A DNA stretch of 64,000 nt from Mytilinidion resinicola. Taxonomy: Eukaryota > Ascomycota > Dothideomycetes > Mytilinidiales > Mytilinidiaceae. The stretch's first letter is position 1. Every line of letters starts with the position of its first letter. Location of the stretch: assembly GCF_010093595.1 (NCBI RefSeq), contig NW_022985478.1, positions 54,331 through 118,330 of the forward strand, in the 5' to 3' direction. A program made the position numbers and the translations under genes. Below, piece by piece: positions 33,949-64,000 of the stretch. The notes below the pieces were generated by a model that was not told the origin of the DNA, did no database searches, and saw only the letters and a list, made by a program, of their open reading frames with translations.

Positions 33949-33999
33949 TTATATTATATCTACTCTTACTACTATAAATACCCCTGCTAACCTAACTAT

Positions 34000-38995: not shown

Positions 38996-39097
38996 TAATT
39001 AAGATTTAATTTACAGCCCTACTTCTAATAAATAGCCGTATATATTATAAACAGCGCCTTCTACTCGCTAAGAAACTTAGGTTTAGAAGGGGGGTAC

Positions 39098-39507
39098 TGT
39101 TATAGTATTAACCGCGACACCCTACCTACCGAAATTCTGCCGTAGATTACTATAACTCTAGTAATCTGCACCGGCCTACTACTATTAGCCGGCCTTCTGC
39201 CCTGCCTACCCTGCTCTACTCCTATTTTACTTCCGCTTCCTATCCTGTCCTGCTCTAGCCACCTACCGGCTGCCCCCTTTTCCTATTACCTAATCTAGTA
39301 AGAACCTCGCGTATACGCGTACTACGCGCCGAAACGGTATAGAGGCCGTACGCCACGCGCTCGGCCACGCCCTTATATCCGGTGGCCTGTCTCCCGTCTT
39401 CCTATTCCTTATATAACGTCTTAATTCTCCACGTAGTATTATATATAGCACCTAATCAACGCTCCTTTTTAAGCCCTTAACCTCTCGCGTGTAGCGCTAT
39501 TATAATA
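39098..39507 (+). repeat. 3' LTR of Gypsy-2, 410 bp
   Basis: It begins TGTTATAG after the polypurine run ending GGGGTAC, and ends ATAATA. It differs from its 5' partner mostly by C/T and G/A changes. Confidence 0.95.
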
Positions 39508-42500
39508 ATAGCCTAGGTTAAGTTACACCGGGATTTATTATTATTAGAAGAGGTTAATTAAGTTATATAAAAGCTATTAAATAGACAGAAACCTATTATA
39601 TTACCAGCTATTAATTAGGCGCATTTAGTAAATAACCTAGCTAAGTAATAGTTAAAATAGAGTTTTATTAAAAACCTATAAAATTAAAAGTTAGGATTTA
39701 GAAGCGTATATAAAAAAAGGTAGTTAAGTAATTAGGTTAGCTAGGAGTAGAAGATTAGGAAAAGGTTTATTAATATTAAAGCTAGTAACCTAGTAGCTAC
39801 TATAGTAGTAAAAGGTAAATAAAGGTTAGTATAGAAAAGGAAAAAGATTAAAAAGTATATATAAGCAATATAAGTATTCCGGCAGTATTTAGCAGCGTTA
39901 GTATATATAATAGGTAGGTTGCCAGCGCGTAGAATAGAGTTAATAATAGTGCAGTATTAAAATAGCCTAAATAGTAATAGTAGGGGGATTTTTATTAAAA
40001 ATAGGTTAGTAGTATATATAATAGTATACTATAAAGGTATAGAAGTTAGTAGAAAGGCTAAAGTTATCTACTAATATTTACTACGCGCGGTGGGCAAATT
40101 AGTAGTATATTATTTATAGTTAGTATTACTATTTTAGCAGAGGTTAAAAAGTATATAGGGCGGTTAACTAGTAAAGATTAGTCTATTTATATAGGAGCCT
40201 AAGCCCGAAAAGAGTTAGATAATACTATAGAGAAAGCGGAGGCGGGTTTAAATTAATAATATAGCAAGCGTAGAAAATAAAAAGGATAAAAAAAAAAAGG
40301 ATAAAGAAAAGAATAAAAAGTAAGGAAAAAAAGAATATAAAGTAATAGAAGAAACCGAAAACATTACTAAAAATAAAAAGGGAAAAAATATAGTTCTATT
40401 ACCTAAGAAATAGAATTCTAACCGTTTAAAAATAGTATTATAAGAAGCGTTATTATAATAAATAGAGGTTAAATTAAATATTATAGTATAGAGATACAGT
40501 ACTAAGGCTATATACCGTTAATATATTAATTCTAAAGCAGTTATAAAGGCGGTAGTGCAGGGCGATAAAAATAATTCGGATAATAAAAATAAAGTATTTA
40601 ATATCTAGACCGGCTATAGATCTAGAATTAAAGGGGGAATATATAGTCGGTTAATTATAGAGTTAATATTTAGTACTAAGGTAAAAAGGGTATAGTTATA
40701 GAGGGTTAGTATAAAGTAGTATTAGTTTTTATAGTTTCTATATATAATATAGACTAAGCTAAAAAAAGAAACCTATATAGCAGCTAATAAAAAGAAGGCT
40801 ATTAAGAAGAAATATTAAAAGTAGAAGATAATAAAATTAGTAGATATAGAGCAGCAGTTAAAAGTATTAGTAAGTAAAAAAGCTAAATTTTAGGGTATAT
40901 AGAGACTAGTATTAAAGGCTATTATATACTATAAAAGCCCGGTAGTTGCTATTATAGGTATAGGTAAAGGTAAAAGCGTTTTATTTATATTACTAGTATT
41001 ATATTTAACAGGCGTAATAGTAGTAGTTATACTATTAGTATTATTATAGAAGGATATAAAAAACCGTTATAATAAAGCCGGTATTAGTTATATTAAATAG
41101 AATAGTTAAAGTCTGTAAAAATAGGCGCAGGTTATATTAGTTATATTAGAGTCGGCGGTTAGAAAGGTATTTAGCAATTTTATTAACTAACAGCGGTTAA
41201 TAGAACAGTTAAACCGAATTATAATTAATAAATACTATATAATTTTAGATTTAGTAGGCAGGTAGAGGAGCAGGATATTAGTATTAAGGAATTTAGTTAT
41301 AATAAAAACGCAGTTAGTATATTTAACAGTAATAATTTAGCCCTAAAAAGAAAAGAAATTTATTTAATTAATAGGGTTACTAGCTAGAAAAAAATACTAG
41401 TAGTTTTAGAGGCTAATAACGCGGAAAAATATTATATACTGTATTTAACAATATAATATATAAAAGGAAAAAAACGTAATTATTAAGTTAGCAGAGAGTT
41501 TAAAGTAGAAGCACGCAGAGGGGCAGGTAATTATATATTATAATATAGTAAAAAAAACAGTTTAATTAGTAGAAGTTTTAGAGTATATTTATTTCTACTA
41601 AAATATAGGAAGTAGTAAAAAGAAAAGTAAGTTAGTAAAGCAGTTAATAAAAGGGTAATAGCAGGTGTTTATAGCTATAAATATATTAGGGTTAGGTATT
41701 AATATGCTAATAATTTAAGTAGTAGTATATATTAGAATAATTCGAAAAATACGGTATTACACGCAGGAGAGCGGAAGAGTAGGGCGTAATAGGCGGAAGA
41801 GTAAAGTAATAATTATATATAGATTTCGAATAGATAAAAAAGGTGTTATTTATAAGTAGAATTTTAGAAAAAACGTTAAAAAGGAAATATAGAAATTTAT
41901 TATAGGTAGAAGTTATATAAAAAAAACAATTAACGGTATAATAAATAGGAACTAAAAGCGAGTAGAATATAAAAAGGGGGAATAGAAATACTAGTAATAT
42001 TAAGGGTGTTTAGCCGTTAATAAAAAAAAGGTAGTTATAAAAGCTAAAGCAATAACTAATATAGTAGTTAATAATAGGAATATATATAAAATTGTTTCGA
42101 TTAATTAAAATATATATACTAGTATAACAGTTATAATTAAAGATACTAATAAGCCTAATAATAATATATAGGGCGTTACTATAGCAGACAGCGTATTAAA
42201 AGTACTACTAGCAATACTCTAGATAGAAAAAAAGGCGGTTATAAAAAAAATAGAATTTAAGCAGTAGTTATTAGTTTAAAAAGTATAAGTAATTAGAAAG
42301 GTAAGTTTATAGTTAATAAAAGTATTAGAAATAGATAAATTAGTTAAATTAATAGAGCAGTAGAAAGTAGGTTACTAGTAATATTAGGTATAAAAGGAAA
42401 AAAGTAAGGGGTATAAAATTTAGTATTATAATAAGCCGGAAGCGGAGAATATTCGGGTAGTAATTAAAATATTTTAAAAAAAAATAAACCTAATAAAAAA

Positions 42501-42889
42501 GGTATAAAAAAAGGGGGTAAAAATATTATAGGCGCTATTTTTAGGGTATTAGAAGTATAGGTTACTATAAGGGGTTTATATAAGTTATAAAAAAAATATA
42601 GGGCGTAAAAAGTAGTAAAAGTAATAGAAGAAAAAGTATTAGTAGAAAAGTATATTAATAGCAGTAGTATACGCAGTATAGGTGTAGTATTCTAAAAAGT
42701 TTAGAAATTTTATTAAAAAAGAGATATAAAAAAAGGGGTGGAAAAAAGGCAGTAATAGTAATTAGAGGAGTATATTATAATAGTTTAGCAGGAAGGTTTA
42801 ATAGGGCGAATTAAAGTTAAATTAAATATATTAGGGATTTATTAAATTTATAGAGCAGGTTAGGAAATAGAAAGTTTAGAAATTATTAA

Positions 42890-43298
42890 AGTTTAAAAAA
42901 AAGGGTAGGTAGGTGCCTATATAGGGTTCTAGAAAGGCGCAGTAGCAGGTATTTAAAGTAGAGCAGGAAAGTAAAGGTTAAGTATAAGTAAGGGTTTAAA
43001 AGGGTATATTTTTAAAAAAAGAAGGTAGGTAGGTGCCTATATAAAGTTCTAGAAAAGCCGCAGCAGTAAATATTTAAAGTAGGGTAAAAAAGTAAGGGTT
43101 AAGTATAGAGTTAGAGTTTAAAAGAAATTGTTTTTAAAAAGGGAGTAGATAGGTGCCTATATAGGATTCTAAAAAGGCTATAGCAGCAGGTATTTAAAGT
43201 AGAGTAAAAAAGTAAAGGTTAAGTATAAAGTTAGAGTTTAAAAGAGATTATTTTTAAAAAGGGGGTAAATAGGTGCCTATATAGGATTCTAGAAAGGC
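42890..43298 (+). repeat. 120-bp subterminal tandem array of copy A (at least four units)
   Basis: The landmark AGGTGCC recurs at 42911, 43031, 43151 and 43271, an exact 120-bp period. Each unit contains a telomere-like GTTAGAGTTT or AAGGGTTT motif. The array runs into the N gap and matches the array before the telomere. Confidence 0.93.
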
Positions 43299-44113
43299 NN
43301 NNNNNNNNNNNNNNNNNNNNNNNNNNNNNNNNNNNNNNNNNNNNNNNNNNNNNNNNNNNNNNNNNNNNNNNNNNNNNNNNNNNNNNNNNNNNNNNNNNNN
43401 NNNNNNNNNNNNNNNNNNNNNNNNNNNNNNNNNNNNNNNNNNNNNNNNNNNNNNNNNNNNNNNNNNNNNNNNNNNNNNNNNNNNNNNNNNNNNNNNNNNN
43501 NNNNNNNNNNNNNNNNNNNNNNNNNNNNNNNNNNNNNNNNNNNNNNNNNNNNNNNNNNNNNNNNNNNNNNNNNNNNNNNNNNNNNNNNNNNNNNNNNNNN
43601 NNNNNNNNNNNNNNNNNNNNNNNNNNNNNNNNNNNNNNNNNNNNNNNNNNNNNNNNNNNNNNNNNNNNNNNNNNNNNNNNNNNNNNNNNNNNNNNNNNNN
43701 NNNNNNNNNNNNNNNNNNNNNNNNNNNNNNNNNNNNNNNNNNNNNNNNNNNNNNNNNNNNNNNNNNNNNNNNNNNNNNNNNNNNNNNNNNNNNNNNNNNN
43801 NNNNNNNNNNNNNNNNNNNNNNNNNNNNNNNNNNNNNNNNNNNNNNNNNNNNNNNNNNNNNNNNNNNNNNNNNNNNNNNNNNNNNNNNNNNNNNNNNNNN
43901 NNNNNNNNNNNNNNNNNNNNNNNNNNNNNNNNNNNNNNNNNNNNNNNNNNNNNNNNNNNNNNNNNNNNNNNNNNNNNNNNNNNNNNNNNNNNNNNNNNNN
44001 NNNNNNNNNNNNNNNNNNNNNNNNNNNNNNNNNNNNNNNNNNNNNNNNNNNNNNNNNNNNNNNNNNNNNNNNNNNNNNNNNNNNNNNNNNNNNNNNNNNN
44101 NNNNNNNNNNNNN
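43299..44113. other. assembly gap, 815 N
   Basis: It begins inside the 120-bp array of copy A and ends inside copy B. It probably hides more array units and the 5' end of copy B, so the true length is unknown. Confidence 1.
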
Positions 44114-45679
44114 AGTACTATATTATAGTTTGCTAAGTTTATAGCTATAGTATTACTAAAACGCAGTTATAAATATATTTAACTAAGCACTACTAGGAAT
44201 TAATATTAGTAATATAAAAATCTATATAAAAGGCCGTAGTAGATATAGAAAATTAGGCCTAGAATAATAGGCAGGTTATTTTCCTAGTACCTACTACTAA
44301 ACCTGTTCTATATTTACCTATTTAGTATAATAAATTAAAATATTTAGGAACCTATAAAAACAACTAGCTATATAGAGCTATAGTGCGCGGTTTATAAAAT
44401 ATATAGACCTATTATAAGAAAAAGTATAGGTAGAAAAATCTGTAAAAGTAAGAATATTATTACTAAAGGTAGCAGAGTATTATACAGCGGGCGAAAATAT
44501 AGGAAATTAGCGTATATTACTAGAAATTTAGTAGTAAGGCGTTATTAGCCTAATTATTCTAGGTAAACGCGTATAACCTAGCCGCTAAAAAAGAAAAATA
44601 GAAGAATTCTATTTAGAAGGTATTAGAGGCCGTATTTATATAGGCAATAATTAATATTAAAAAAGCTAATAAGAAAGCAAGTAGTTAGATCTAGGCCGAC
44701 GACAACCAATTTAAGGTTAATATATAGTTAAACCGCGCCGGATAGGCAAAGTATTTAAAGAAATTAAATAGTAAGTAGTTAGAGTTATTAATATATAAGC
44801 CCGAGAATAGAGAGAAAGTATTAGCTAATTTATATTTTGCAGTTAAAATAGTAATTTAGAAGGCGCAGTAAGTATCTAAAGCTAGTATAGTTAGATTAGC
44901 AGCTATAAATTATATTAATCGACGTGAAACTAGTAATAAAATAAATAAGAAGCCGTTTAGCGTATACTAGACAGGTAAAATAATAGTTAAATACAGCGTG
45001 TATTAGTTAGCTATTATCTATTATATTTAGAGAACCTGCAGAATAGAGCCGATTTATAGTAAAAAAATAGAAAAATCGAAGAGTAAAAGTAATATCTAAA
45101 ACTAGAAGCTAGTATTTAGGTTAATAGATAAATAGGGGTTAGTATTAGTAAAGATTAAGATAATAGTAGGGCAGGATAAAAAAAAGAATAGTAATAATAG
45201 TAATATTAGCAATAATAGCAGTAATAGCAATAACAGTTATATAATTAATAAGAAGAAGTAAAAAAAGTTAAAAAAGGCTGTTTTAGTATTTATATTAGCG
45301 TTATTAGACCACCTATTTACGGATAATAAGTATACCAGCGTATTAATTAGCGGCATAGCCGTTTTAGGTATTAGCTAGTAATATAGTTAGGAAAGCGCGT
45401 TAATATACACGCCTAAAATTACAGCTATTATTAATAAATCCTATATATTAGTTTTATATTAGGCTATAAAAATGCGTAAAAAGCGTGCAGCGGATATATA
45501 ATAAAAGGAGTATTTTAGCTAAAAAAACGCCGAGGAAATAGCGCCGGCGCATTTTAAATTTATATAAAAAATAGCAGACCGGTTTATAATATTAGTTTAA
45601 TATAGCGGAATACTATATTCTATAAATTAGTTACAGCAGTTAAAGGCGTATAGAATAAAGATTTAGTATACTACTAATA
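44114..45679 (+). mobile_element. OrsD-RecQ element copy B (type D), both ends missing
   Basis: Its first base matches D at about 58305, in the first zinc-finger region. It runs collinear to D position about 59873, where it stops mid-gene. The next bases are the start of copy C. The helicase half is absent. RIP damage is heavy. Confidence 0.88.
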
Positions 45680-48600
45680 CTATTAACCTATAGGTAAAAT
45701 ATATCGTGGTATATACTATATTATAATTTAAAACTAAACTATACGCTGTAATAATATAATTTAGAAACGAAAATTAAATTATACTATAGCAAACCCTAAC
45801 CGAATTTACTAGTTCCAACGCTACGGGCAAGTTATTAACTATTGCGTATTAAATACACTATTCGGATTAATAATACAACCGTTAGATTATATTATTATCG
45901 TCGCGTTAGGGTAGTTAGGGTTATAATAATATTTATAGCCGTGTATAGCAATCGCAGTTAAGGCGCGAACGTAGAAGGGTAGTTAAGTACCTAAAGTTCG
46001 TAATAGATATAGTTATTACAAGCTATTTATAAGCCCTAGGTACCCGGAAATTAGGACCTACTATACTACTAGTTATACCCAGGTATATAAGGTTATAGAT
46101 AAATCCCCTAAATATATAGTTAAGTAATAGGTGTAATAATCTAGGTAGCTAAGAGCAGAAGGTATTAAAAAGGGTCTAAGTAGCGGTGAAAGTAGTTAAA
46201 AGCACGTCCGGCCGCTATTAACACGGCGATTAACACGTTTATTAATTATCTATTATCTAATATTCTATTATCCTATTATTATATTAAACCGTAAATCCGT
46301 TATAGTAATTATTATAGCAATTATATTAAACGCTATAGAATAATTCACCCGAATTTTCGAGTATATCCTGCAGTACTATATTATAGTTTGCTAAGTTTAT
46401 AGCTACAGTATTACTAAAACATAGTTATAAATATATTTAACTAAGCACTACTAGGAATTAATATTAGCAACACGAAAATCTATATAAAAGGCTATAGCAG
46501 ATATAGAAGATTAGGCCCAGAACAATAGGTAGGTTATTTTCCTAGCACCTACCGCTAAACCTGTGCTGTATTTACCTATTTAGTATAATAGATTAAAATA
46601 TTTAGGAACTTATAAAAACAACTAGCTATATAGAGCTATAGTACGCGGTTTATAGAATATATAGACCTATTATAAAAAGGAGTATAGGTAGGAGAATTTA
46701 TAAAAGTAAGGACGTTATTACTAAAGGCAGCAGAGTATTATACAGCGGGCAAAAATATAGGAAGTTAGCGTGTATTGCTAGAAATTTAGTAGTAAGGCGT
46801 TGTTAGCCCGATTATTCCAGGTAAATATATATAACCCAGCCGCTAAAAAAGAAAAATAGAAGGATTCTATTTAGAAGGTATTAGAGGCCGCATTTATACA
46901 GGCAATAATTAATATTAAGAAAGCTAATAAAAAAGCAAGCAGTTAGATCTAGGCCGATAACAACTAATTTAAGGTTAATATATAGTTAAACCGCGCTAAA
47001 TAGGCAAAGTATTTAAAAAGATTAGATAGCGAGTAGTTGGAGTTATTAATGCGCAAGCCTAAAAAGAGAGAAGAAGCATTGGCCAATTTATATTTTGCAG
47101 TTAAAATAGTAATTTAGAAGGCGCAGTAAGTATTTAAAGCTAGTATAGTTAGATTAGCAGCTATAAATTATATTAATTAACGTAAAACCGGTAATAAAAC
47201 AAACGAAAAGCCGTTTAGCGCACGCTAGACGGGTAAAACAATAGTTAAATACAGCGCGTATTAGTTAGCTATTATCCGTTATATTTAGAAAACCCGCAGA
47301 ATAGAGCCGATTTATAGTTAAAAAATAGAAAAGTCGGAGAGTAAGGGTAATATCTAGAACTAGAGGCTAGTATTTAGGTTAATAGGTAAATAGGGGTTAG
47401 CGTTGGCAAAAATCGAGATAATAGTAGGGCAGAATAAAGAGAAGAATAGTAATAATAGTAATATTAGCAATAATAGTAGTAATAGTAATAACAGTTATAT
47501 AATTAATAAAAAGAAGTAAGAAAGGTTAAAGAAGGCCGTTTTAGCATTTATATTAGCGTTATTAGACCACCTATTTATAGATAACAAGTACACCAGTGCA
47601 TTAATTAGCGGTATAGCCGTTTTAGGTATTAGCTAGTAATATAGTTAGGAAAGCGCGTTAATATACACGCCTAAAATTACAGCTATTATTAATATATCCT
47701 ATATATTAGTTTTATATTAGGCTATAAAAATGCGTAAAAAGCGCGCGGCGGATATATAATAGAAGGAGTATTTTAGCTAGAAAAACGCCGAGGAAATAGC
47801 GCCGGCGCATTTTAAATTTATATAAGAAATAGCAGACTAGTTTATAATATTAGTTTAATATAGCGGAATACTGCACCCTATAAATTAGTTATAGTAGTTA
47901 AAGGCGTATAGAATAAAGATCTAGTATACTACTAATACTAAGGGCGTAATTAAGTAGATAGATAATATATTATTATATAGTAATATTCGATTTAGTATAC
48001 CCTAGTTGCGTTTAATAGTCTATAGATTAGTAGAAACAGCCTAGGTTAAATTGCACCGGGATTTATTATTATTAGAAGAGGTTAATTAAATTGTACAGAA
48101 GCTGTTAAGTAGACAGGAACCTATTATATTACCAGCTATTAATTAGGCGTATTTAGTAGATAACCTAGCTAAGTAATAGTTAGAATAGAGTTTTATTAAA
48201 AACCCGTAAAATTAAGAGTTAGGATTTAGGGGCGTGTATAGAAAGAAGTGGTTAAGTAATTAGGTTAGCTAGGAGCAGAAAATTAGGAAAAGGTTTATTA
48301 ATATTAGAGCTAGTAACCTAGCAGCCGCTATAGTAGTAAAAGGTAAGCAAGGGTTAGTATAGAAGGGGAAGAAAATTAAAAAGTATATATAAATAATATA
48401 AGTATTCCGGCAGTATTTAGCAGTATTAGTATATATAATAGGTAGGTTGCCAGTGTGTAGAATAGAGTTAATAATAATATAGTATTAAAACAGCCTAAAT
48501 AGTAATAGTAGGGGGATTTTTATTAAAAATAGGTTAGTAGTATATATAACAGTATACTATAAAGGTATAGAAGTTAGTAGAAAAGCTAAAGTTATCTACT

Positions 48601-49458
48601 AATATTTACTACACACAGTAGGCAAATTAGTAGTATATTATTTATAGTTAGTATTACTATTTTAGCAGAGGTTAAAAAATATATAGGGCGGTTAACTAGC
48701 AGAAATTAGTCTATTTATATAGGAGCCTAAGCCCGAAAAGGGTTAGATAATACTATAGAGGAAGCGGAGGCGGGTTTAAATTAATAATATAGTAAGCGCA
48801 GAAGATAAAAAGGATAAAGAAAAGGATAAAAAAAAGAAGAATAAAAAGAAGGATAAAGAGTAAAAAGAAGAAAAATATAAAGCAATAGAAGAAACCGAAA
48901 ATATTACTAAAAATAAAAGGGGAAAGAATATAGTTCTATTACCTAAGAAATAGAATTCCAACCGTTTAAAGATAGTATTATAAGGAGTATTATTGCAATA
49001 AATAGAAGTTAAGTTAAATATTATAGTATAGAGATACAGTACTAAGGCTATATACCGTTAATATATTAATTTTAAGGCGGTTATAAAGGCGGTGGTACAG
49101 GGTAATAAGGATAATTTAGATAATAAAGATAAAGTATTTAATATCTAGACCGGCTATAGATCTAGAATTAGAGGGGGAATATATAGTCGGTTAATTATAG
49201 AGTTAATATTTAGCACTAAGGCAAAAAAGGTATAGTTATAGAGGGTTAGTATAAAGTAGTATTAGTTTTTGCAGTTCCTATGCGTAATATAGACTAAGCT
49301 AAAAAAAGAAACCCGCGCAGTAGCTAATAGAAAAGAGGCTATTAAGGAGAAATATTAACAGTAGAAGATAATAAAATTAGTAAATATAAAGCAGTAGTTA
49401 AAAGTATTAGTAGGTAAAAAGGCTAAATTTTAGGGCGTATAGAAACTAGTATTAAAGG
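45680..49458 (+). mobile_element. OrsD-RecQ element copy C (type D), 3' truncated before the helicase
   Basis: It begins CTATTAAC like A and D, keeps the full leader, the zinc-finger part, the middle region and the acidic stretch, and ends at the position equivalent to D about 61380, just before the Walker A motif. It continues directly into copy E1 through the shared bases CTAT. It provides an intact reference for the site into which Gypsy-2 inserted in copy A (one ACAGC near 48035). Confidence 0.9.
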
Positions 49459-52034
49459 CTATCCTACAGCGGTAAATAGAACTAGCCCTTATTCTATTTA
49501 TTTATTAAGAATAGAAAATACTAGACTAGGGCGTAGATTTAGGCACAGGGCTTATTCTATTTATTTTTAGAGGCAGGTTCTATTTATATCCCGCAGCCGG
49601 AATTACACCAAATTTTAGTATATTATTCAGCGTATTTAGTTGCACCCCCTAGCTAATTTATATTAGGTTAACCCGTGTAGTTAGTTAGGGTTAGGTGGAA
49701 GTTATAGTATTTGCAGAACCGCCGCAACTGCGACTGAGCGCGCAGCAGAACACTACTAGCCGTAGCTATATATACTACACGAATATTAGCAGCAGCACTA
49801 AACTAATACCTATAGAAGGCAGGCGTGGTTAATATTTAATAATAGCGTATTAGGTGCAGGTAAAAAAGGTATAGCAGTAAATAAGGTAGCTACAGGCCTA
49901 ATTTTTAGTTAGGGACGAGAACTTTAAGCCCGGACGTATATATTAGCGCAGATCCTATGCAGTTATATATAGATCCCGGGCAAGCATAGTTATATTATAA
50001 GTTAGGCTATAGTTATAATAGTTTAGTAGGTGGTTAAAGTAATTAGCAACTGTAGCAACTATAGCAGCAAGGCGAAAAAGGGGTGGAAATTGCACCCAGC
50101 AACCTATAAGTAGCACTCGTCGCCGCCTATTAAATATTAAGTAAAAGTTAATTCTAGAGGCAGACTAAGTGTTTAAAATAGCTAAATCTAGTACTAAGAG
50201 CAGGTATTTTAAGTATTTAGCCGAATTCTAATTAGCTATTTATAAGGAGTATAGGTATAGTATATAGCTAGACTAGATTAAAGGCTATTTATAAAAGATC
50301 TATAAGGTACCGCGCAAAGAGGCCGATTTAATTAGAGAAGGTGTGCGTAAATAGCCCGGAGTTATCTAGTATCCGAGTAAGTTTAAAATGCCGGATAGTA
50401 TTATAGCGCCAGTTAGCCAGTTGCCGTTATATTCGGATAGATTATTATATTAACTAGAACCAGGCCGTTACTATTATATATTGCGGAGTATTAGGGCAAT
50501 AAAAAAGTATTAGTAAAAGATCTATAGGTGGTTAGCAGGAAGAAAGCAAGGACGGCTAAGTTAATTAGGAAAAAAGAGGGTACAGGCACGTATTAAAAAG
50601 GTATTTAAACACGTCTATTACTAGTAGTTTTTTATATAAGGCCACGGATTATAGTATTTTAAAGTGCGATAACCTAGGCAAGGCTAGGAAGCTAGGCTAG
50701 AACCTGTTCCTATTAACAGCAAGATTATATAAATGCAGTTAGGAAAGAAAATAGCAGAGGCGTAGGTAAATATAGAGAAGCAAGCCTAAATAACTATCTA
50801 AGCCGGCGAAAGAGATAAGGTAAACCTATAGTTAGAGCGGATATAGTAGTTGCTATATTTAGTAGGTATAGAGAGGCCGGATTTATTAGTATATATTAAG
50901 GAGCTAAATATAAACCTAAAGTAGGAGAAGGAACCTATTAAAGCCGTAATTTAGAAGGCTATAAACGGGTTAGCGCGGTTTAGCTAGGCGTTAGTTATTA
51001 ATTAAATTGGTATATTTATATAGTTAGAGGCGATTTAAATAGAAAAGCACTAAACGCAGTACTAGCTATTGCAGCCGTATATAGATAAGAAGTTAATTAG
51101 CGAATATACTTAGCTATAGAAGCAGATATTAATGTTTTTTGCCTATATACAGCGTAAGTATAAATAAAAGAGCCCTAAGTACCGGTTTACGCGGTAGTAG
51201 TAAAAAGCGTAGAAGGCGTTAATTAAGCAGGCCGAGCAAGAGGTAGAGGAAGAGGACGAGATAGAAGAAAAGGAAAAGGATAAAATAGAAGAAAAGGAGA
51301 ATAAAATAGAAATTAATAAGATAGATAGTAATAAGGAGCAGGGAACAGGAGATAGTAGGCCTAAAAACGCTAGCAGTAAGCTAGAAGAGTTAATAGGCAT
51401 CTAGAAGGCGTGTTTACAGTTTTATATTAAGTTGCTAAACTAATCTATTACCTATAAGGAGTATAACAGCCTATTAGTATATATATTAGCAGTATTAGGT
51501 GTTAAGAAAAACAGCTGGAAGGGCCCTAAGTCGTATCCGCCTATTTTATTAGCCGTTATTAAGGTTACCTATTTTATAGTAGTTTAGTAAGCGTTAGAGT
51601 TATTAGAGCTATTTTAAAATAGCGAGTTTAATAGTAATAGTACGTATAAAAGCGATAATAGTAGTATACTATTCTAGTAGTAGTAGAAAGGATGTTTACA
51701 GTTTATTTAAGAGATAATAGATAAGTTTATAGTCTAAGGAAGCCACAGGCTAATATAGTAGATATTAGATTTACGGATATATAGGTTAAAAATCTATTAT
51801 AATAGTATATTAAGAGGCTATATTAAATAGATAGGCTATAATAAGTTATTATATAAGGGGTTATATTTTAATATAGCCTAGTTCTATAGTATAGTATACA
51901 GGTTAGTTATAGAGAGCCGATAGTTATTATTAAAAAAGCTGTTGTTTTTTAATAGCGGGATTTTAGCATATATATATACTAAAATCCTGCTACCTAGTAA
52001 ATAGAATAAGATAACTAATTAAGTGCCCGTAATT
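49459..52034 (+). mobile_element. OrsD-RecQ element copy E1 (type E), 3' truncated
   Basis: It begins CTATCC and is collinear with E2 from 52035 to about 54609, then joins the start of E2. It keeps the leader, zinc fingers, middle region and an acidic low-complexity stretch, but no helicase. It is more RIP-damaged than E2. Confidence 0.9.
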
Positions 52035-55000
52035 CTATCCCACGGCGGTAAATAGAACCAGCCCTCGTTCTATTTATTTGTTAAGAATAGAAAATACCAG
52101 ACCAGGGCGTAGATTTAGGCACAGGGCTTATTCTATTTATTTTTCAGAGGCAGGTTCCATTTATGTCCCGCAGCCGGAATTGCACCAAATTTTAGTATGT
52201 TATTCAGCGTATTTAGTTGCACCCCCTAGCCGATTTGCATTAGGTTAACCCGTATGGTTGGTTAGGGTTAGGTGGAAGTTATAGTGTTCGCAGAACCGCT
52301 GCGACTGCGACTAAGCGCGCAGCAGAACACCACCAGCCGTGGCCATATACACTATACGAACATTAGCAACAGCACCAAACCAATACCTATAGAAGGCAGG
52401 CGTGGTTAATATCCAATAATAGCGTATTAGGTGCAGGCAAGGAAGGTATAGCAGCAAATAAGGTAGCTACGGGCCCAATTTTTAGTTGGGGACGAGAATT
52501 TTAAGCCCGGATATATATATTAGCGCAGATCCCGTGCAGTTATACATAGATCCCGCGCAGGTATAGTTGTATTGTAAGTTGGGCTATAGTTATAATAGTT
52601 TGGCGGGTGGTTAGGGTGATTAGCAACCGCAGCAACTATGGCAGCGAGGCGAAAAGGGGGTGGAAATTGCACCCAGCAACCTATAAGTAGCACTCGTCGC
52701 CGCCTATTAAATATTAAGTAAGAGTTAATTCTAGAGGCAGACTAAGTATTTAAAATAGCCAAATCCAGTACTAAGAGCAGGTATTTTAAGCATTTAGCCG
52801 AATTCCAATTAGCTATTTACAAGAAGTGCAGGTATAGCGTATAGCTAGACTAGATTAAAGGCCATTTATAAAAGATCTATAAGGTACCGCGCAAAAAGGC
52901 CGATTTAATTAGAGAAGGTGTGCGCAAATAGCCCGGAGTTATCTAGTATCCGAGTAAGTTTGAAATGCCGGATAGTATTATAGCGCCAGTTAGCTAGTTG
53001 CCGTTATATTTAGATAGATTATTATATTAACTAGAACTAGGCCGTTGCTGTTATATATCGCGGAGTATTAGGGCAATAAGGAAGTATTAGCAAAAAATCT
53101 ATAGGTGGTTAGTAGGAAGGAAGCCAGGACGGCTAAGTTAATTAGGAGAAAAGAGGGTGCAGGCACATATTAAAAAGGCATTTAAATATATCTATTGCCA
53201 GCGGTTTTTTATATAAGGCCACGGATTACAGTATTTTAAAGTGCAACAACCTAGGCAAGGCTAGGAAGCCAGGCTAGAACCCGTTCCCGTTAACAGCAAG
53301 ATTGCATAGGCGCAGTTAGGGAAGAAGATGGCAGAGGCGTAGGCAAATATAGAGAAGCGAGTCCAAACAACTATCTAGGCCGGCGAGAAAGATAAGGTAA
53401 ACCCGTGGTTGGAGCGGACGCAGTAGTTGCCGTATTTAGTAGGTATAGAAAGGCCGGATTTATTGGCATATATTAAGGAGCTAAACACAGACCTAAAGCA
53501 GGAGGAGGAACCTGTTAAAGCCGCAATTTAGGAGGCTATAAACGGGTTAGCGCGGTTTAGCCAGGCGTTGGTTATTAATTAAGTCGGCGTATTTATACGG
53601 TTAGAGGCAATTCGAATAGAGAAGCACTAGACGCGGTACTAGCCGTTGCAGCCGTATATAGACGAGAAGTTAATTAGCGAACACACCCGGCTGTAGAAAT
53701 AGATGTTAATGTTTTTTGCCTGTATACAGCATAAGCATAAGTAGGAGAGCCCTAAGTACCGGTTTACGCGGCGGCAGTAAAAGGCGTAGAAGGCGTTAAT
53801 TAAGCAGGCCGAGTAAGAGGTAGAGGGAGAGAACAAGACAGAAGAAAAGGAAGAGGATAAAATAGAAGAGGAGAAGGATAAAATAGAAATTAATAAGATA
53901 GATAGCGATAAGGAGCAGGGAACGGGAGATAGCAGGCCTAAGAACGCCAGCAGTAAGCTAGAAGGGTTAACAGGCATCTAGAAGGCGTGTTTACAGTTTT
54001 ATATTAAGTTGCTAAACTAATCTATTACCCGCAAGGAGTATAACAGCCTGTTAGTGTGTGTATTAGCGGTGTTAGGTGTTAAGGAGGACGGCTGGAAGGG
54101 CCCCAAGTTGTATCCGCCTATTTTATCAGCCGTTATTAAGGTCACCCGTTTTATAGTGGTTTAGCAAGCGTTAGAGTTATTAGAGCCGTTTTAAGATAGC
54201 GAGTTTAACAGTAATAGTACGTACGAGAGCGATAACAGCAGCATACTGTCCCGGCAGCGGCAGAAAAGATGTTTACAGTTTGTTTAAGAGATAATAGATA
54301 AGTTTATAGTCCGAGGGAGCCACGGGCTAATATAGTAGATATTGGATTTACGGATATATAGGTTAAAGATCTATTACAACAGTATATTAAGAGGCTACGT
54401 TAAATAGATAGGCTATAACAAGTTGTTATATAAGGGGTTGCATTTTAATATAGCCTAGTTCCGCAGTATAGTATATAGGTTAGTTATAAAGAGCCGACGG
54501 TTATTATTAGAAGAGCTGTTGTTTTTTAATAGCGGGATTTTAGCATGTGCATATACTAAAATCCTGCTACCTAGCAAATAGAACAAGATAACTAATTAAG
54601 TGCCTGTAATCCTATAGAGTGAATTGCAGGATAATCCAACAGACGAGCGACCGGAATGGAATTTTTTAAAGAACTATTAAACGCAGTTGCCCGTTAATAG
54701 AGAGACGTGGTTATTCGATTATATCGGACGCGATCCTGTAACCCGAGGAAGGTTTTTAAAGGCAGAATACCGCTCGGGTATTAATTAATAAGGAGTTAAG
54801 CAGTATATATCACGCGTAATTAAATTCCGAGAGAAGTTGATTATATTAATATATATATTAGGAAGGCAGCCAGCACAAGAACCTAAGGTTTTAAGCGTTC
54901 GGCACAGCAATACAGTAAAGGGCGGGCATTATAATATATTTATCGAGGACGGTATAGTAGTATTTATAACGCGATACTATAAGGGTTATATAGTTAGTGG

Positions 55001-57612
55001 CGATATTAAGATTATCCATCGATATATACCGTGTAAGGTAGAGGAGTTATTAGTATAGTATTTATAGTTAGTGTTGCTGTTCCAGCAGCGATTAGAGGCG
55101 ATAGTATAGGAGAAAAAGGCAATATTGTCGCATTTATAGCCGGCCGACCTAAGCAGGTATAAGTAGACGTCGGAATAGTTGCGACAGGCGTTAAAGCGCG
55201 AGAGCAGGGTCGGGTTAGGGCAGGAGCTAACTATCTAGTTATACTGTGAAATTGCTATTAGTATTAGCAGAAGGTTTATGCGCAGTTTAACGGCGTTTAG
55301 GGCAGAGGACGACAATAATAATAAGAAGTAGAATAAGGAGAATATAGCAGCAGCAATTGCAGACGAGCAGGCCGGGCATATATCGCACGTTGCCGGGTTA
55401 GTATATACGCGAGCAATTATAGAGCAGGCAGGAGCGGTGGCCGATAAAAGGCAGCAGTTCCGGGCATTAAGCATGGATTAGCATTAGTTTTTAGGATATT
55501 AGTTGGCTGTTAATAATAAGTTTATATTAAAGAAGCGGAAGCAGGCTCTATTTAAAAGCGAAGCAGATAAAGGTTAAAAAGATTAATAGGCGCGGTTAAG
55601 GAAGATAGATATAGCGGTATAGTTAAAGCGGATAATAGGTATAAAGGCGGTGTTCCGAGGCGTACAGGAGGACGTAATCGCGATAATTATAGCAGGCGAG
55701 AGCCCGGTGGTAGCAGTAATACCAACTAGTGCAGGAAAAAGCTTATTATTTATATTGCCAGCGTGGGCAGAGCAGGGTGGAATAATAGTAGTTGTGGTGC
55801 TGTTGATTGCATTGCAAGGGGATATAAAGCGGCGATGCAAGAAGCTGGGTATTTCGTGTAAGGAATAGGAAGAACGGCACCCCCTAGATGCGGCAGCCGT
55901 TGTATTAGTAACGCCGGAATCCGCCGTTAGTAAGGGATTTATAACGTTTTTAAATCGATTAAGGGCAACGCGGCAGCTGGATCGGATTGTTATTAACGAG
56001 TGTTATATTGTTTTAAACTGTTGATATACGTTCTAGAAGCAGATGCAGCAGTTAGGTAAGCTAGTGGCGGCCGAGACGCAGATAGTATTATTAACCGCAA
56101 CGTTGCCGCCGATAGAAGAAGGGGAATTGTATTAAAGAATATATTTCCAGAGGGAGCAGGTAAAGATATTTAGGGCGAGGACAGCACGAGTAAATATAGC
56201 GTATTATATAGTTTAAGTAGATAGAGAAGGAAAATAGGAGATAGAGGAAGCGGTTTTAGGGATAATTTAAAGGAAAATTTAGAGGATTTAAACCGGGAAG
56301 GTAGTAGTATATAGTAGTATAGTTGGAAAAGTAAAGAAAATAGCGCAGGCGTTGGATTGCAGCGCGTATTACTATAACGCAGTAGGTAAAGCAAGTATAT
56401 TAAGCGAGTTTATAGACGGCAAGCAACAGGTAATTATAGTAATAAGCGCGTTGGGTATAAAGGTGGATATACCGGATATTTAGTGTATTATATATATAGA
56501 TCGGCCGCAAACGTTGTTAGATTACGCACAGGAGAGTAGCAGGGCGGGGCGAAACGGATTGCAGAGCGAGGCAATTATAGTTAAAGAAGGGGGTAAGAGG
56601 AGAAGTAAAGAAGATAGGTAGATAGAAGAAGAGCGGCGGTTAGTAGGGTTATATATAGAAGGGGAGGGTAAGATAGAAAAATATAGGAGGATTATATTAG
56701 ACGGGTATTTAGACGGGCAAGGGGATAGAAATAGGTGTAAGGAAGGCGAAGAGTTATATAATATTTGCGGCGGAGTAGAAGAGAAGGTGGAAAAGGTAGA
56801 AGAGGAAATAGAAGAGGCTAAGGAAAAGGTTAAAGAAAAGGTGGGCGGGCAAGCGGTGCAGAAGGAGAATAATAAGGTTATATAAGAGGAGATATAGCGC
56901 AAGTTCCAGCAACAGGAGCAGGAGAAACGGGGCCCGCAGCAGGATTTAATTTGGGGTAGACAACAAGAGTTTATAGAGGTGGAATAGTTGCGGCAGCAGT
57001 TATAGCGGTGGGCAGGGCGATGCAGAGTATATAAAGCAGCGGGTTTAGGGCGGAGCAATTATAATTTGCGGCAGTATTAGAGGCAAGAAAGTTAACAGGT
57101 AAAGGAGATAGTAAAGATGTTGGAGGGGAGGATTAAGTTCAAGGCATTTTCGGGTTGTTTTTAGTATAGGGTGCTATAAGAGATTTACAATTAATAGGAG
57201 AGTAATAGATAGAGTAGGTATCGGAAGGTTTAAGGCGGGTGTTGCTAGTATACAGGTGTAGTAATAGCCGGGTTTATTAGGTTAATATTTAGGTATAAAA
57301 CGGAGGTTTAGAAGCGTTGGAGGCGCCGGATAGGGAAGATAGAAGTGGATATAGATTTAGACGAGGAGTTAGTTGGTTATTTAGAAGGGAAACGGCAGTT
57401 AGAGGTAGTGGAAAGTAATAATTTAGCAGGAGAGTTTTGTTAGATTACCAGGTTAATAGTAGAGTAGGTAGAATAGTAGAGAGATGTATATTTTTAAGGA
57501 AAAAAATAATATATAATAAATATAATATAAAAATTAAATAGGATAGGATTAGTTTAAAAGGTGTATTATATTATTTAGAGGTTATAAAAAGATAAATTAG
57601 GTAAAAATAATT
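52035..57612 (+). mobile_element. OrsD-RecQ element copy E2 (type E), near full length
   Basis: It starts CTATCC at 52035 and extends 5.58 kb to the start of copy D. The leader is about 700 bp. The coding part runs from about 52770 to 57480. The last 130 bp are AT-rich and lack the 120-bp array, so the 3' end may be trimmed. RIP damage is light. Confidence 0.88.
52770..57480 (+). pseudogene. type E OrsD zinc-finger / RecQ helicase protein, lightly RIP-damaged
   Basis: The + frame opens with paired C2H2-like fingers of the OrsD (DUF3505) type and the family segment CQRFFIQGHG (about 53180-53220). An acidic Glu/Lys stretch follows (about 53820-53930), then a conserved block at 54837-55060 with SVRHSNT, a YYKG turn and IKIIHRY. 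The RecQ-type helicase starts near 55640. Walker A reads PTSAGKS (about 55730), the DExH box reads NECY (about 56000), motif III is LTAT, and motif VI QESSRAGRNG lies near 56530. About 25 in-frame stops occur, nearly all explicable as CAA/CAG/TGG changes. Telomere-linked RecQ helicases occupy chromosome ends in several fungi; a role in end recombination is proposed for them. Confidence 0.8.
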
Positions 57613-58299
57613 CTATTAACCTATGGGTAAAACATATCGTGGCATATGCCATATTATGATTTAAAACTGAACCGTGCGCTGCAACGATATAATTTAGAAA
57701 CGAAAATTAAATTATACCGTGGCAAACCCCAACCGAATTTGCTGGTTCCAACGCTGCAGGCAAGTTATCGACTATTGCGCATTAAATACACTATTCGGAT
57801 TAACGATGCGACCGTTGGATTATGTTGTCGTCGTCGCGTTGGGGTAGTTAGGGTTGTGATAATGTTCGTGGCTGTGCGCAGCGATCGCAGTTAAGGCGCG
57901 AACGTAGGAGGGTAGTTAAGTACCCAAAGTTCGTAATAGATGTAGTCGTTGCAAGCTATTTACAAGCCCTAGGTACCCGGAAATCAGGACCCACTATGCC
58001 ACCAGTTGCACCCAGGCATGCAAGGTCGTAGATAGATCCCCCAGATACATAGTTAAGTGACGGGTGTAATAATCTAGGTGGCCAAGAGCAGGAGGCGTTG
58101 GGAAGGGTCTAAGTAGCGGTAAGAGTAGTTAAAAGCACGTCCGGCCGCTATTAACACGGCGATTAACACGTTTATTAATTATCTATTATCTAATATTCCA
58201 TCATCCCATTATTATATTAAACCGTGAATCCGTTACAGCAATTATTGTAGCAATTGTATTAAACGCCATAGAACAATTCACCCGAATTTTCAAGCATAT

Positions 58300-61200
58300 C
58301 CCGCAGTACCGCATTGTAGTTTGCCGAGTTTGTAGCCACGGCATCACTAAAACGCAGTTATAAATGCATTTAACCAAGCACCACCAGGAATTAACATCAG
58401 CAACACGAAAATCCATATAAGAGGCCGTAGCAGACATAGAAGATTGGGCCCAGAACGACAGGCAGGTTGTTTTCCTAGCACCCACCGCTAAACCCGTGCC
58501 GCATTTACCTATTTAGTATAACGGATTAAAATGTTTAGGAACCTATAAAAACGACCAGCCGTGTGGAGCTATAGTGCGCGGTTTGCAGAATATGCAGACC
58601 TATTATAAGAAGGAGCATAGGTGGGAGAATCCGCAAAAGCGAGGACGTTATTACTAAAGGCAGCAGAGTATTATACAGCGGGCGAAGATGTGGGAAGTTA
58701 GCGTGCATTGCCAGAAATTCAGCAGCAAGGTGTTGTTGGCCTGATTGTTCCAGGTAAACGCGCACAACCCAGCCGCCGAGAGAGAAGAATAGAAGGATCC
58801 TATCCAGGAGGCATTAGAGGCCGCATTTACACAGGCAACAATTAATATTAAGAGAGCTAACAAGGAAGCAAGCAGTTAGATCCAGGCCGACAACAACCGA
58901 TTCAAGGTTAATGCATGGTTAAACCGCGCCGGATGGGCAAAGCATTTAAAGAGATTAGATAGCGAGTGGTTGGAGTTGTTAATGCGCAAGCCCGAGAAGA
59001 GAGAAGAAGCGTTGGCCAATTTGTGTTTTGCAGTTAAGATAGTAATTTAGAAGGCGCAGCAAGCATCCAAAGCCAGTATAGTTGGATTAGCAGCCATAAA
59101 TTATATTAATCGACGTGAAACCGGCAATAAAACAAACGAGAAGCTATTTAGCGCACGCCAGACAGGCAAGACAATAGTTAAATACAGCGCGTGTTAGTTA
59201 GCTATTGTCTATTACGTTTAGAGAACCCGCAGAATAGAGCCGATTTGCAGCAAGGAGATAGAAGAGTTGGAGAGCGAGGGCGATATCTAGAACTAGAGGC
59301 CAGTATTTAGGTTAACAGGTAAACAGAAGTTAGCGTTGGCAAAGATTAAGATAATAGTAGGGCAGGATGAAGAGGAGAATAGCGATAATAGTAATATTAG
59401 CAACAACAGCAGTAATAGCAACAACAGTTATATAATTAACAAGAAGGAGCAAGAAAGGTTAGAGGAGGCCGTTTTAGCATTTATATTAGCGTTGTTGGAC
59501 CACCCGTTCACGGATAACAAGTACACCAGCGCATTAATTAGCGGCATGGCCGTTTTAGGCATTAGCCAGCGATGCGGTTGGGAAAGCGCGTTGATATACA
59601 CGCCCAAGATTGCAGCTATTATTAATATATCCCGTATATTAGTTTTATATCAGGCCATAAAGATGCGTAAAGAGCGCGCGGCGGATATACAACAGAAGGA
59701 GCATTTTAGCCAGAAAGACGCCGAGGAAATAGTGCCGGCGCATTTTAAATTTGTGCAAGAGATAGCAGACCGGTTTATAACGTTAGTTTAATATAGCGGA
59801 ATACCGCACCCTGTAGATTAGTTGCAGCGGTTAAAGGCGTATAGGATAAAGATCCGGTACACCACCAATACCGAGGGCGTAATTAAGTGGATGGACAATA
59901 CGTTGTTGTATAGTAATATTCGATTCAGCATGCCCTAGTTGCGTTTAATAGTCCACGGGTTAGTGGAGACAGCCCGGGTCGAGTTGCACCGGGATTTATT
60001 ATTATTAGAAGAGGTCGATTAAGTTGTGCGGGGGCTGTTAAGTAGACAAGAAGCTGTTGCATTGCCAGCTATTAATTGGGCGCATTTAGTAGATAACCCA
60101 GCCGAGTAACAGTTAGGATGGAGTTTTATTAAGGACCCGCGAAATTAAGAGTTGGGATTCGGGGGCGTGCATAGAAAGAGGTGGTTAAGTAATCGGGTCA
60201 GCCAGGAGCAGAAGATTAGGGAGAGGTTTATTAATATTAGAGCCAGCAACCCAGCAGCCGCCATAGCAGCAAAAGGCAAGCAAGGGTTAGCATAGAAGGG
60301 GAAGGAGATCAAGAAGTATACACGAGCGATGCGAGTATTCCGGCAGTATTTAGCAGCGTTGGTGCACATAACAGGTGGGTTGCCAGCGCGTGGAATAGAG
60401 TTGATAACGGTGCAGCATTAAAACAGCCCGAATAGCGACAGTAGGGGGATTTTTATTAAGGACGGGTTAGTAGTATATATAACGGCATACCACAAAGGCA
60501 TAGGAGTTAGTGGAAAGGCCAAGGTTATCCACCGATATTTACCACGCGCGGTGGGCAAATTGGTGGTGTATTATTTGTAGTTAGTGTTGCTATTTTAGCA
60601 GAGGTTAGAAAATACATAGGGCGGTTAACTAGCAGAGATTAGTCTATTTATATAGGAGCCCGAGCCCGAAAAGGGTTGGACAATACTACAGAGGAAGCGG
60701 AGGCGGGTTTAAATTAATAATACAGCAAGCGCAGAAGATAAAAAGGACAAAGAAGAGGAGGATAAAAAGAAGGATAAAGAGCAAGGAGAAGAAGAATGCA
60801 AAGCAATAGAAGAAACCGAAAACATCGCCGAGGATAAAGGGGGAAAGAACACAGTCCTATTACCTAAGAAATGGAATTCCAACCGTTTAAAGATGGCATT
60901 GCAAGGAGCGTTATTGCAATAGATGGGGGTTAAGTTAAATATTATGGCATGGAGACACGGCACCAAGGCTATATACCGTCGATATATTAATTCCAAGGCG
61001 GTTGTAAAGGCGGTGGTGCAGGGCGACAAGGACGATTTAGATAATAAAGACAAAGTATTCGACATCTAGACCGGCCATAGATCCAGGATTAGAGGGGGAA
61101 TATACGGTCGGTCGATTACAGAGTCGATATTCAGCACCGAGGCAAGGAGGGCACAGTTGCGGAGGGTTAGCACAGAGTAGCATCGGTTTTTGCAGTTCCC

Positions 61201-63060
61201 ATACGCGATGCAGACTAAGCCGAAGAAAGGAACCCGCACGGCAGCCAACAGAAAGGAGGCTATTAAGGAGGAATATCAACGGTGGAAGATAATAAGATTG
61301 GTGGATATAGAGCAGCAGTTAAAAGCGTTAGTAGGCGAAAAGGCCGAATTTCAGGGCGTGCAGAGACCAGCATTAAAGGCCATTATACACTATAAGAGCC
61401 CGGTAGTTGCTATTATAGGCACAGGTGGAGGCAAGAGCGTATTATTTATGTTGCCAGCATTATGTTCAACAGGCGTGACAGTAGTAGTTATGCTATTAGT
61501 GTCGTTGCAGGAGGACATAAAAAGCCGTTGCAACAAAGCCGGCATTAGTTGCGTTGAATAGAACAGTTAAAGTCCGCAAGAATAGGCGCAGGTCGTGTTG
61601 GTCACGCCGGAGTCGGCGGTTGGAAAGGTATTTGGCAATTTTATCAACCAACAGCGGTCAATAGGACGGTTGGACCGGATTATAATTAATAAATGCCACG
61701 TAATTTTGGATTTAGTAGGCGGGTGGAGGAGCAGGATGTTGGCGTTAAGGAATTTAGTTATAATAGAAACGCAGTTAGTATATTTAACGGCAACAATCCA
61801 GCCCTAAGAAGAGGAGGAATTTATTCGATTAATAGGGTTGCCAGCTAGGGAAGAATGCCAGTGGTTTCGGGGGCCAACAACGCGGAAAAATATTATGTAC
61901 CGCATTTAACAATATAATATGCAATAGGAAGAGAACGCAGTTGTTAAGTTGGTAGAGAGTTTAAAGCAGAAGCACGCGGGGGGGCAGGTAATTATGTATT
62001 GCGACATAATAAAGAAGACAATTTAATTGGCAGAAGTTTTAGAGTGCGTTTATTTCCACCGAAATATAGGAAGCAGTAAGGAGAAGAGCGAGTTGGTGAA
62101 GCAGTTAACCAAAGGGCGATAGCAGGTGTTCACGGCCACAAACGCATTAGGGTTAGGTATTAATATGCCAACAATTCGAGCGGTAGTGCACGTTGGAACA
62201 ATTCGAAAAATGCGGTATTACGCGCAGGAGAGCGGAAGGGCAGGGCGTAATGGGCGGAAGAGTAAAGCAATAATTATGCACGGATTCTGAACAGATAAAA
62301 GGGGCGTTGTTTATAAGCAGGATTTTAGGGAGGATGTTAAGGAGGAAATATAGGGATTTATTGTGGGTAGGGGTTGTATAAGAAAGATAATTAACGGTGC
62401 AATAGATAGGAACCAAGAGCGAGTAGAATACGAAGAGGGGGAATAGAGATATCAGCGATATTAAGCGCGTTTAGGGGTAGCAGTTAATAAAGAGGAGGTA
62501 GTTATAGAAGCCGAAGCAATAACTAATATAGTAGTCGCCAATAGGGACACAGATAAGATTATTTCGATTAATTGGGATATACGCGCCAGCACGACAGTTG
62601 TAATTAAGGACGCCGATAAGCCCGATAATAATGCATAGGGCGTTACTACAGCAGACAGCGTGTTAGGGGTACCACTAGCAACGCCCCGGATGGAAAAGGA
62701 GGCGGTTGCAGAGAGAGTGGAATTTAAGCAGCAGTTGTCGGTTCAAAAGGCATAAGCAATTAGAGAGGCAAGTTTACAGTTAATAAAAGCGTTGGAGGTG
62801 GACAGATTAGTTAAATTAATAGAGCAGTGGAAGGTAGGTTGCCAGCAATATTGGGCATAGAAGGAAAGGAGTAAGGGGCACAATATTTAGCATTGCGATA
62901 AGCCGGAAGCGGAGAATATTCGGGTAGCAATTAAGATATTTCGAGAAAAGATAAACCTAATAAAGGAGGCGCAAGGGAAGGGGGCGAAAACGTTGTGGGC
63001 ACCGTTTTTAGGGTGTTAGGAGTGCGGATTACTATAGAGGGTTTGCGCAAGTTATAAAAA
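58300..63060 (+). pseudogene. type D OrsD zinc-finger / RecQ helicase protein, lightly RIP-damaged
   Basis: Frame order: a first finger VCRVCSHG...MHLTKHH (58320-58390), a second finger KCLGTYKNDQPCG...KKEHRW (58530-58630), and a long helical middle part. The largest intact piece is 59336-59791, which includes a poly-Asn/Ser stretch. A conserved block at 60330-60600 has GGLPARGIEL, YHKG and KVIHRYLP, followed by a Glu/Lys-rich stretch. The RecQ helicase starts near 61280. Walker A GTGGGKS is at about 61420-61441; the DExH box reads NKCH (about 61695) for an expected DECH. Motif III is LTAT (about 61790), motif V ATNALGLGINMP (about 62140), and motif VI QESGRAGRNGR (about 62225). Stops are scattered but sparse and fit CA-to-TA changes. 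A cryptic cysteine/histidine-rich tail follows. Confidence 0.85.
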
Positions 63061-63359
63061 GGATATAACGCGGGGAGGGTAGCAGAAGTAAAGGGGAAAG
63101 AAGTGTTAGTATAAGGGAGTATTGGCAGCAGCGGTGTATACAGTATAGGTGCGGTATCCTAAGGAGTTTAGAAATTTCGTTAAGAAGGAGATATAAAAGG
63201 GGGGGTGGAAAGAAGGTAGCAACAGGGATTAGGGGAGCGTGTTACAATAGTTTAGCGGGAAGGTTTAATAGGGTGGATTAGAGTTAAATTAAATGTGTTA
63301 GGGATTTGTTAGATTTATAGAGCAGGTTAGGAGATAGGAAGTTTAGGGTTATTAGAGTT

Positions 63360-63937
63360 TTAAAGGGGGGGTAGGTGGGTGCCTGTATAGGGTTAAGGGA
63401 AGGCGGCGGCAGCAAATATTTAAAGTAGGATAAGAAAGCAAGTGTTAAGTATAGAGTAAGAGTTTAAAAGAGTTTATTTTTAAAAGGGGGGGGTAGGTGG
63501 GTGCCCGTGTGGGATTAGGGAAAGGCGGCGGCAGCGGATGTTTAGAGTAGAGTATAGAAGTAAGAGGGAAACATAGAGTTAGAGTTTAAAAGGGGTGTTT
63601 TTTAAAAAGAGGGGGTGGGTAGGTGCCCGTGTGGGGTTAAGAAAAGGCGGCAGCAGCGAATATTTAAAGTAGGACAAGAAAGCAGGTGTTAAGTATAAAG
63701 TAAGAGTTTAAAAGGGGTTATTTTTAAAGAGGGGGTAGGTAGGTGCCCGTGTGGGGTTAAAGGAAGGCGGCGGCAGCAAATGTTTAAAGTAGGACAAGAA
63801 AGCAAGTGTTAAGTATAGAGTAAAAGTTTAAAAGAGTTTATTTTTAAAAGAGGGAGGTAGGTAGGTGCCCGTGTAGGATTAGGGAAAGGCGGCGGCAGTG
63901 GATGTTTAGAGTAGAGTATAGAAGTAAGAAGGAAACG
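63360..63937 (+). repeat. subterminal tandem array, five units of 120-122 bp
   Basis: GTGCC landmarks fall at about 63379, 63501, 63623, 63743 and 63865. Each unit has a G-run, GTAGGTGGGTGCC, a GGCGGCGGCAG core, and a telomere-like stretch such as ATAGAGTTAGAGTTT. Units alternate between two slightly different types. Confidence 0.93.
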
Positions 63938-64000
63938 TAGGGTTAGGGTTAGGGTTAGGGTTAGGGTTAGGGTTAGGGTTAGGGTTAGGGTTAGGGTTAG
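63938..64000 (+). repeat. telomere, (TTAGGG)n
   Basis: About ten uninterrupted TAGGGT repeats to the last base. The G-rich strand runs 5' to 3' toward the end, so the chromosome terminus is to the right. The array is cut by the end of the window or assembly. Confidence 0.98.

Follow-up and report, generated by a model that had tools for sequence, protein, structure and literature searches.

We analysed a window of 64,000 nucleotides of Mytilinidion resinicola, which forms the right end of contig C42 (contig positions 54331-118330, with terminal TTAGGG repeats from about window position 63937), and compared it with the genome (47.1 Mb, 44 contigs). The window carries a head-to-tail stack of telomere-linked helicase elements, which is probably best explained by element-driven replacement of the chromosome end, performed by an element whose protein joins a predicted tyrosine recombinase to a RecQ-type helicase. 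The elements have a fixed start, enter their targets by a sequence rule, show a common polarity, lack telomere repeats at their junctions and encode a protein with the motif and the predicted fold of a recombinase. The recombinase domain, the target rule, one additional truncation and one additional, older copy extend a preliminary description of the region that had been made from the sequence alone.

Organization and age of the stack

Read inward from the telomere, the stack consists of copies D, E2, E1, C and B, an 815-base gap of N (43299-44113, without strand) and copy A, all copies being on the plus strand. Self-comparison and direct reading place A, B, C and D in one family (the D family) and E1 and E2 in another (the E family). 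The terminal element D runs from its 5' start at 57613 to 63936, including 120-bp repeats on its telomere side (63333-63936, plus strand), and is followed by the telomere repeats (63937-64000, plus strand). Copies B (44114-45679), C (45680-49458), E1 (49459-52034) and E2 (52035-57612) are all cut at unrelated positions, and another element begins on the very next base, the starts being 45680, 49459, 52035 and 57613; those of C and E1 are intact 5' ends. The cuts correspond to D position 2258 in B (D-equivalent 59870), D position 3767 in C (D-equivalent 61379), E position 2577 in E1 (E2-equivalent 54611) and E position 5578 in E2. The helicase part is missing from B, C and E1 and present in E2.

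The preliminary description had reported inner copies cut on the telomere side and fused to the start of the next element, with cuts at 59873, 61380 and 54609 (within 3 bases of our values) and with the helicase half lost from B, C and E1, and our analyses confirm these points. It had named B, C and E1 as the truncated copies, which they are, but E2 is cut as well, since copies on contigs C6, C7 and C11 extend beyond the equivalent of 57612. Likewise, the interval 44114-63937 given for the stack holds a real stack, but this begins further in, with the older copy A at 31375, and position 44114, taken as the element start of B, is the edge of the N gap. The gap conceals where A meets B and where B begins; the missing start of B would need about 690 of the 815 bases. 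The 5' part of A, the oldest copy (31375-33537), is recognized by its match to D from 57613 and by its start sequence; a long terminal repeat (LTR) retrotransposon inserted on the plus strand at 33538-39510 (LTRs at about 33538-33951 and 39097-39510 by self-comparison) separates it from the 3' part (39507-43298), which ends in 120-bp repeats (about 42892-43298).

The GC content falls inward within each family, from 43.9% in D to 29.9% in C, 27.5% in B and 24.6% and 25.9% in the 5' and 3' parts of A, and from 40.9% in E2 to 34.1% in E1, which indicates that the inner copies are older and supports the earlier view of the stack as a record of successive end replacements. Transversions are few between D and B (3 in 1567 bases), D and C (2 in 3768) and E2 and E1 (2 in 2576); D and A differ by 138 in 5944, and A is a diverged subfamily of the D family. 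The other changes are mostly GC to AT, commonest in CA context, a pattern that fits repeat-induced point mutation (RIP), which may have acted longer on the inner copies.

Element starts and the target rule

From the window and from genome-wide loci of the same genome we obtained 53 pairs of a 40-base flank and an element start. Every one of these starts lies at a single base of D or of E, with first letters CTAT in 50 pairs and TTAT in three, and the 5' end of the D and E elements begins CTATC, while the 40-base flanks are nearly all different. Two to four bases are common to both sides at the junctions.

Comparison with uninterrupted copies revealed the rule at the other side. At 27 distinct targets located in D, E or the LTR element, the next letter of the uninterrupted sequence is C in 27, the next two are C-Y (Y, pyrimidine) in 27 and the next three are C-Y-R (R, purine) in 23, against 3.79, 1.22 and 0.93 expected by chance, and 20,000 simulation runs gave at most 10 C-Y. 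Three duplicates of the junction at D position 1187 (D1187) and the array junctions D5913 and E|D5904 were dropped before this count, and loci L013 (the same E29 junction as L025) and L050 (array) were removed by the alignment filter; locus L023, whose flank only resembles another gypsy element that continues CTA, is also outside it. For targets outside elements, other copies were present for 4 of 14 flanks among the matches listed (40 of 430 candidates scored); the uninterrupted copies read CTA/CTG at L006, CTA at L020 and CTC/CTT at L015, and the poorly aligned flank of L035, which reads TTT, was set aside. All 30 confidently read targets (27 in D, E or the LTR element and three others) thus carry C-C or C-T. 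Three junctions in 120-bp arrays were set aside, since they show C-Y against the array of A where readable, but not against that of D. RIP turns CCA and CCG into CTA, so that CTA is the form of the target in RIP-mutated DNA. The cut points, described earlier as unrelated, are unrelated in position but not in sequence, being at C-Y(-R). As a control, the breakpoints of six truncated elements that run directly into telomere repeats (E1730, E1504, E2623, E724, D3719 and D2352) show C-Y once, at E724.

A breakpoint common to all copies, which the preliminary description had set against its own reading, is not seen, and only a few breakpoints recur: D1187|E on contigs C3, C5, C6 and C34, E5578|D on C42 and C43, and E29|E on C31 and C27. 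Position D1187 (window 58799) is the sole CTATCC in D, six bases identical to the start of E, and is a possible insertion hot spot. We considered the four D1187|E junctions, with their differing upstream sequences, as evidence that the block from a 5' start to the telomere moves as a composite unit, and did not keep them as proof: independent hits are as likely, because the E tree (disturbed by RIP) scatters the E copies of these junctions and because of the uniqueness of CTATCC. The E5578|D junction was dropped as proof of composite mobility for another reason, as homologous exchange could also give it; ready-made stacks may spread by such exchange between ends.

A predicted recombinase within the helicase protein

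Both families encode a zinc-finger-like OrsD domain, a cryptic stretch predicted to be a tyrosine recombinase and a RecQ-type helicase, with DEAD and Helicase_C domains detected by Pfam in D and in E. The frame of the D protein (P0121; 58133-63040, plus strand) is broken by 47 stops and contains, on the same strand, the OrsD domain (PF12013; 58286-58618, residues 52-162, E 3.6e-17), the stretch assigned to the tyrosine recombinases by predicted fold and alignments (P0164; 59810-61312) and the helicase domains (PF00270 and PF00271; 61358-62254, residues 1076-1374). In the E2 protein (frame of 52035) the helicase domains lie at 55662-56558 on the plus strand (residues 1210-1508). The sequences P0122 and P0124-P0125 are translated in the wrong frames of E and were left aside.

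The catalytic R, E, K, R, H and Y, encoded in D by codons beginning at 60389, 60398, 60494, 60953, 61076 and 61103, are kept in all intact relatives aligned. The box I pair R194/E197, with Glu three residues after Arg, is present in 35 of 35 sequences of alignment A2 and in 37 of 38 of A3, where the exception is the damaged E2 copy; the beta-hairpin K229, adjoining a predicted strand at 220-227, is present in 35/35 and 38/38. R382, H423 and Y432 are found in 35/35 each in A2 and in 37, 38 and 38 of 38, respectively, in A3. The box II histidine of HxxR is absent (position 379 is M, S, Q, A or others), a residue that not every tyrosine recombinase keeps. For two predicted folds the best alignments are to XerA, XerH and Cre, and the predicted structure has the catalytic fold of a tyrosine recombinase. 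Motif and fold together predict that the D/E protein carries a hidden site-specific tyrosine recombinase. Several searches did not bring out the recombinase: Foldseek against PDB gave 84 matches for the 908-residue model, none with E<=0.001, and two matches, nothing useful, for the 501-residue model, and the Pfam scans named no recombinase. The best Foldseek match in a viral library was an integrase (E 0.82), a search of P0143 against PDB sequences gave just two weak zinc-finger matches, and 32 pattern matches in viral contigs included no relative. Whole-protein Pfam scans of the read-through frames of D and E reported no reverse transcriptase.

Proposed replacement of chromosome ends and related systems

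The genome search detected at least 35 D and 38 E starts on at least 27 contigs. Pieces of E lie within 13 kb of a start on the same strand in all cases (33/33 internal and 19/19 3' pieces), as do 23 of 24 internal and 19 of 21 3' pieces of D, the three exceptions being at a contig edge (C43) or at places with LTR or other insertions (C44 and C39); this test measures proximity and not proven continuity. The 5' ends are intact almost everywhere they can be followed; the 3' ends are cut as a rule. On contigs of known length, 45 of 47 starts are aimed at the nearer contig end. Of the exceptions, C43 is a 14.7-kb contig with a telomere in the pointed direction, and one is clear, a 117-base fragment of a D start at C17:1215811-1215927 that is aimed away from the nearer end. 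All five complete telomere-bearing D ends stop at one base, D6324, beside TTAGGG repeats, which is what a telomere junction moving together with the element would give, and the six telomere-healed truncations all stop at different points. Arrays of at least two TTAGGG in 63 loci occur at contig ends only, and none was found in the junction flanks.

In our proposal, D and E represent two families of a single type of mobile element, whose sole defined end would be the 5', centromere-side CTATC. The recombinase would connect this end to a C-Y(-R) site close to another chromosome's terminus (CTA where RIP has mutated the DNA), exchanging strands across the two to four bases that both have in common. 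The remainder of the element, the 120-bp repeats and the telomere would come after it, probably through copying of the donor as far as its tip, perhaps with the aid of the helicase, and the old distal sequence of the target chromosome would be replaced. Repeated rounds would stack the copies head to tail, with every older one cut short towards the telomere. A recombinase acting at C-Y(-R) accounts for the constant start base, the target rule, the common orientation, the missing distal target and the absence of telomere repeats from the junctions. We infer that the D/E recombinase itself creates the junctions and that transfer occurs by replication; copying to the donor's end is suggested by the increase in copies and the lack of reciprocal products. 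A simple reciprocal swap that keeps both products is disfavoured, because it would leave 5'-truncated copies and none was found among the listed pieces.

An unlikely alternative is that the elements insert by two ends near chromosome termini, in the manner of Cryptons or Starships, and that distal sequence is lost independently and the telomere healed. The recombinase and the short target identity would fit, and telomere-healed broken ends do exist, six in elements and three outside; but the pieces examined showed neither a right-hand junction nor a displaced remnant of a target, and in the readable chains the point of insertion is the point of loss. Less probable still is that chromosomes broke at random and were repaired from other telomeres by break-induced replication or microhomology joining, although two to four bases are shared at the junctions, and E5578|D (C42 and C43) and E29|E (C31 and C27) recur despite different upstream sequences, as homologous exchange gives. 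One fixed donor base in two families and C-Y in 30 of 30 targets are not predicted by such healing, nor is the retention of 5' ends in the D copies. The preliminary description had offered both break-induced replication from another telomere and an element-driven process; the fixed base and the target rule support the second and speak against the first as the cause of the junctions.

Retrotransposon-like addition, in which a chromosome 3' end in CTA would serve as primer on an RNA or single-stranded template whose own 3' end is complementary to CTATC, is very improbable. HeT-A, a telomeric retrotransposon, is added to chromosome ends in Drosophila and has the same geometry (a fixed centromere-side end and telomere-side truncation) with the same short junction match, but the one protein identified in these two families lies on the strand opposite to such a template and contains, by Pfam, no reverse transcriptase; its predicted domain is a recombinase instead. 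Assembly joins can practically be dismissed: although the stack has one N gap and stacked repeats are hard to assemble, 53 junctions on many contigs obey one rule that assembly errors would not reproduce.

Other observations concern contig ends and the surroundings of the stack. At the left ends of C5, C13, C17, C24, C39 and C44, truncated elements are directly capped by telomere repeats; short TTAG-like matches mark the joint, which looks as though telomerase had healed the end. At the left ends of C23 and C36 and the right end of C3 the repeats lie directly on AT-rich non-element sequence. The only interstitial TTAGGG array among the matches listed genome-wide, at C28:178875, is short, lies inside an LTR element and is perhaps repair filler. 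An LTR-interrupted E copy at C6:2048532 (L028), about 102 kb from the contig end and aimed at the nearer end, is an internal relic. Within the window, a second copy of the LTR retrotransposon of A, about 91% identical, occupies positions 1-5619, and a conserved gene at 12793-13983 has named relatives in Pleosporales (e.g. Zopfia, Pyrenophora and Plenodomus) with about 53-63% identity.

Fungal telomere-linked helicases, known since the 1990s, have no agreed function; the hidden recombinase predicted here, together with one fixed end and a target rule, makes that question directly testable. We give roughly even chances to a broader reading, namely that D and E represent a class of DNA transposons with a single encoded end, the other end being the chromosome terminus, in which a fusion of recombinase and RecQ would capture CY(R) sites and transfer the donor terminus as a whole, with the element, any elements downstream of it and the telomere, to another chromosome. 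Many fungal telomere-linked helicases would then be transposases of end-replacing elements, serving also as a backup for lost telomeres, and not host telomere genes. If true, transposons would have a route other than reverse transcription to build and renew chromosome ends, subtelomere turnover in such fungi would be explained, and end-replacement events could be dated through RIP strata. We found no link between telomere-linked helicases and tyrosine recombinases in a literature search that did not cover preprints and most subscription papers, for which reason the evidence for novelty is weak.

The D/E domain shares with XerA, XerH, Cre and IntI the catalytic fold and the residues R, E, K, R, H/W and Y, and its H-Y spacing of 9 is that of W315-Y324 in Cre, whereas sequence identity is about 11-13%, the box II histidine is lacking and the domain is fused to OrsD and a helicase. 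Cryptons resemble D and E as DNA elements with a tyrosine recombinase, short target identity and no inverted repeats, but they have two ends (PMC3212892), while D and E have one defined end, a fused helicase and a lost distal target; no second end of D or E with Crypton-type short direct repeats was found among the pieces examined, and the word helicase is absent from the main text of that paper. Starships, which are also fungal, have their tyrosine recombinase gene close to the 5' end, and one predicted target contains CTA, but they are described with two ends, direct repeats of 2-12 bp and cargo (PMC12153272); Pfam reported no match of D or E to the Starship captain (DUF3435), and no second end occurred among the pieces examined. 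MoTeR, FoTeR, telomeric Penelope-like elements and HeT-A also form oriented stacks with truncated copies at chromosome ends. FoTeR and MoTeR are retrotransposons at telomere repeats (PMC12857005, PMC8381367), and FoTeRs and the Mycosphaerella elements retain telomere repeats at the inner junction (PMC12857005, PMC4522978); these retrotransposons encode a reverse transcriptase, in contrast to D and E, for which none was reported and whose junctions lack telomere repeats. The fungal telomere-linked RecQ helicases share with D and E the OrsD domain and a RecQ-type helicase, a position adjacent to telomeres and many copies, many of them truncated; one sequence in our alignments (P0154) is labelled tlh1 by its source. 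Among Pleosporales, homologues are named from Pyrenophora, Alternaria, Didymella and Plenodomus. The accessible parts of the literature describe 19 subtelomeric RecQ helicase genes in Agaricus, 9 of them truncated (PMC7473861), 13 copies in Mycosphaerella, 6 of them truncated (PMC4522978), and further genes in Fusarium (PMC12857005), and state that subtelomeric RecQ helicases have no domain beyond the helicase core (PMC7473861). There they are treated as host genes; D and E, by contrast, carry a predicted recombinase and act like mobile elements that have one constant end and follow a rule in their targets.
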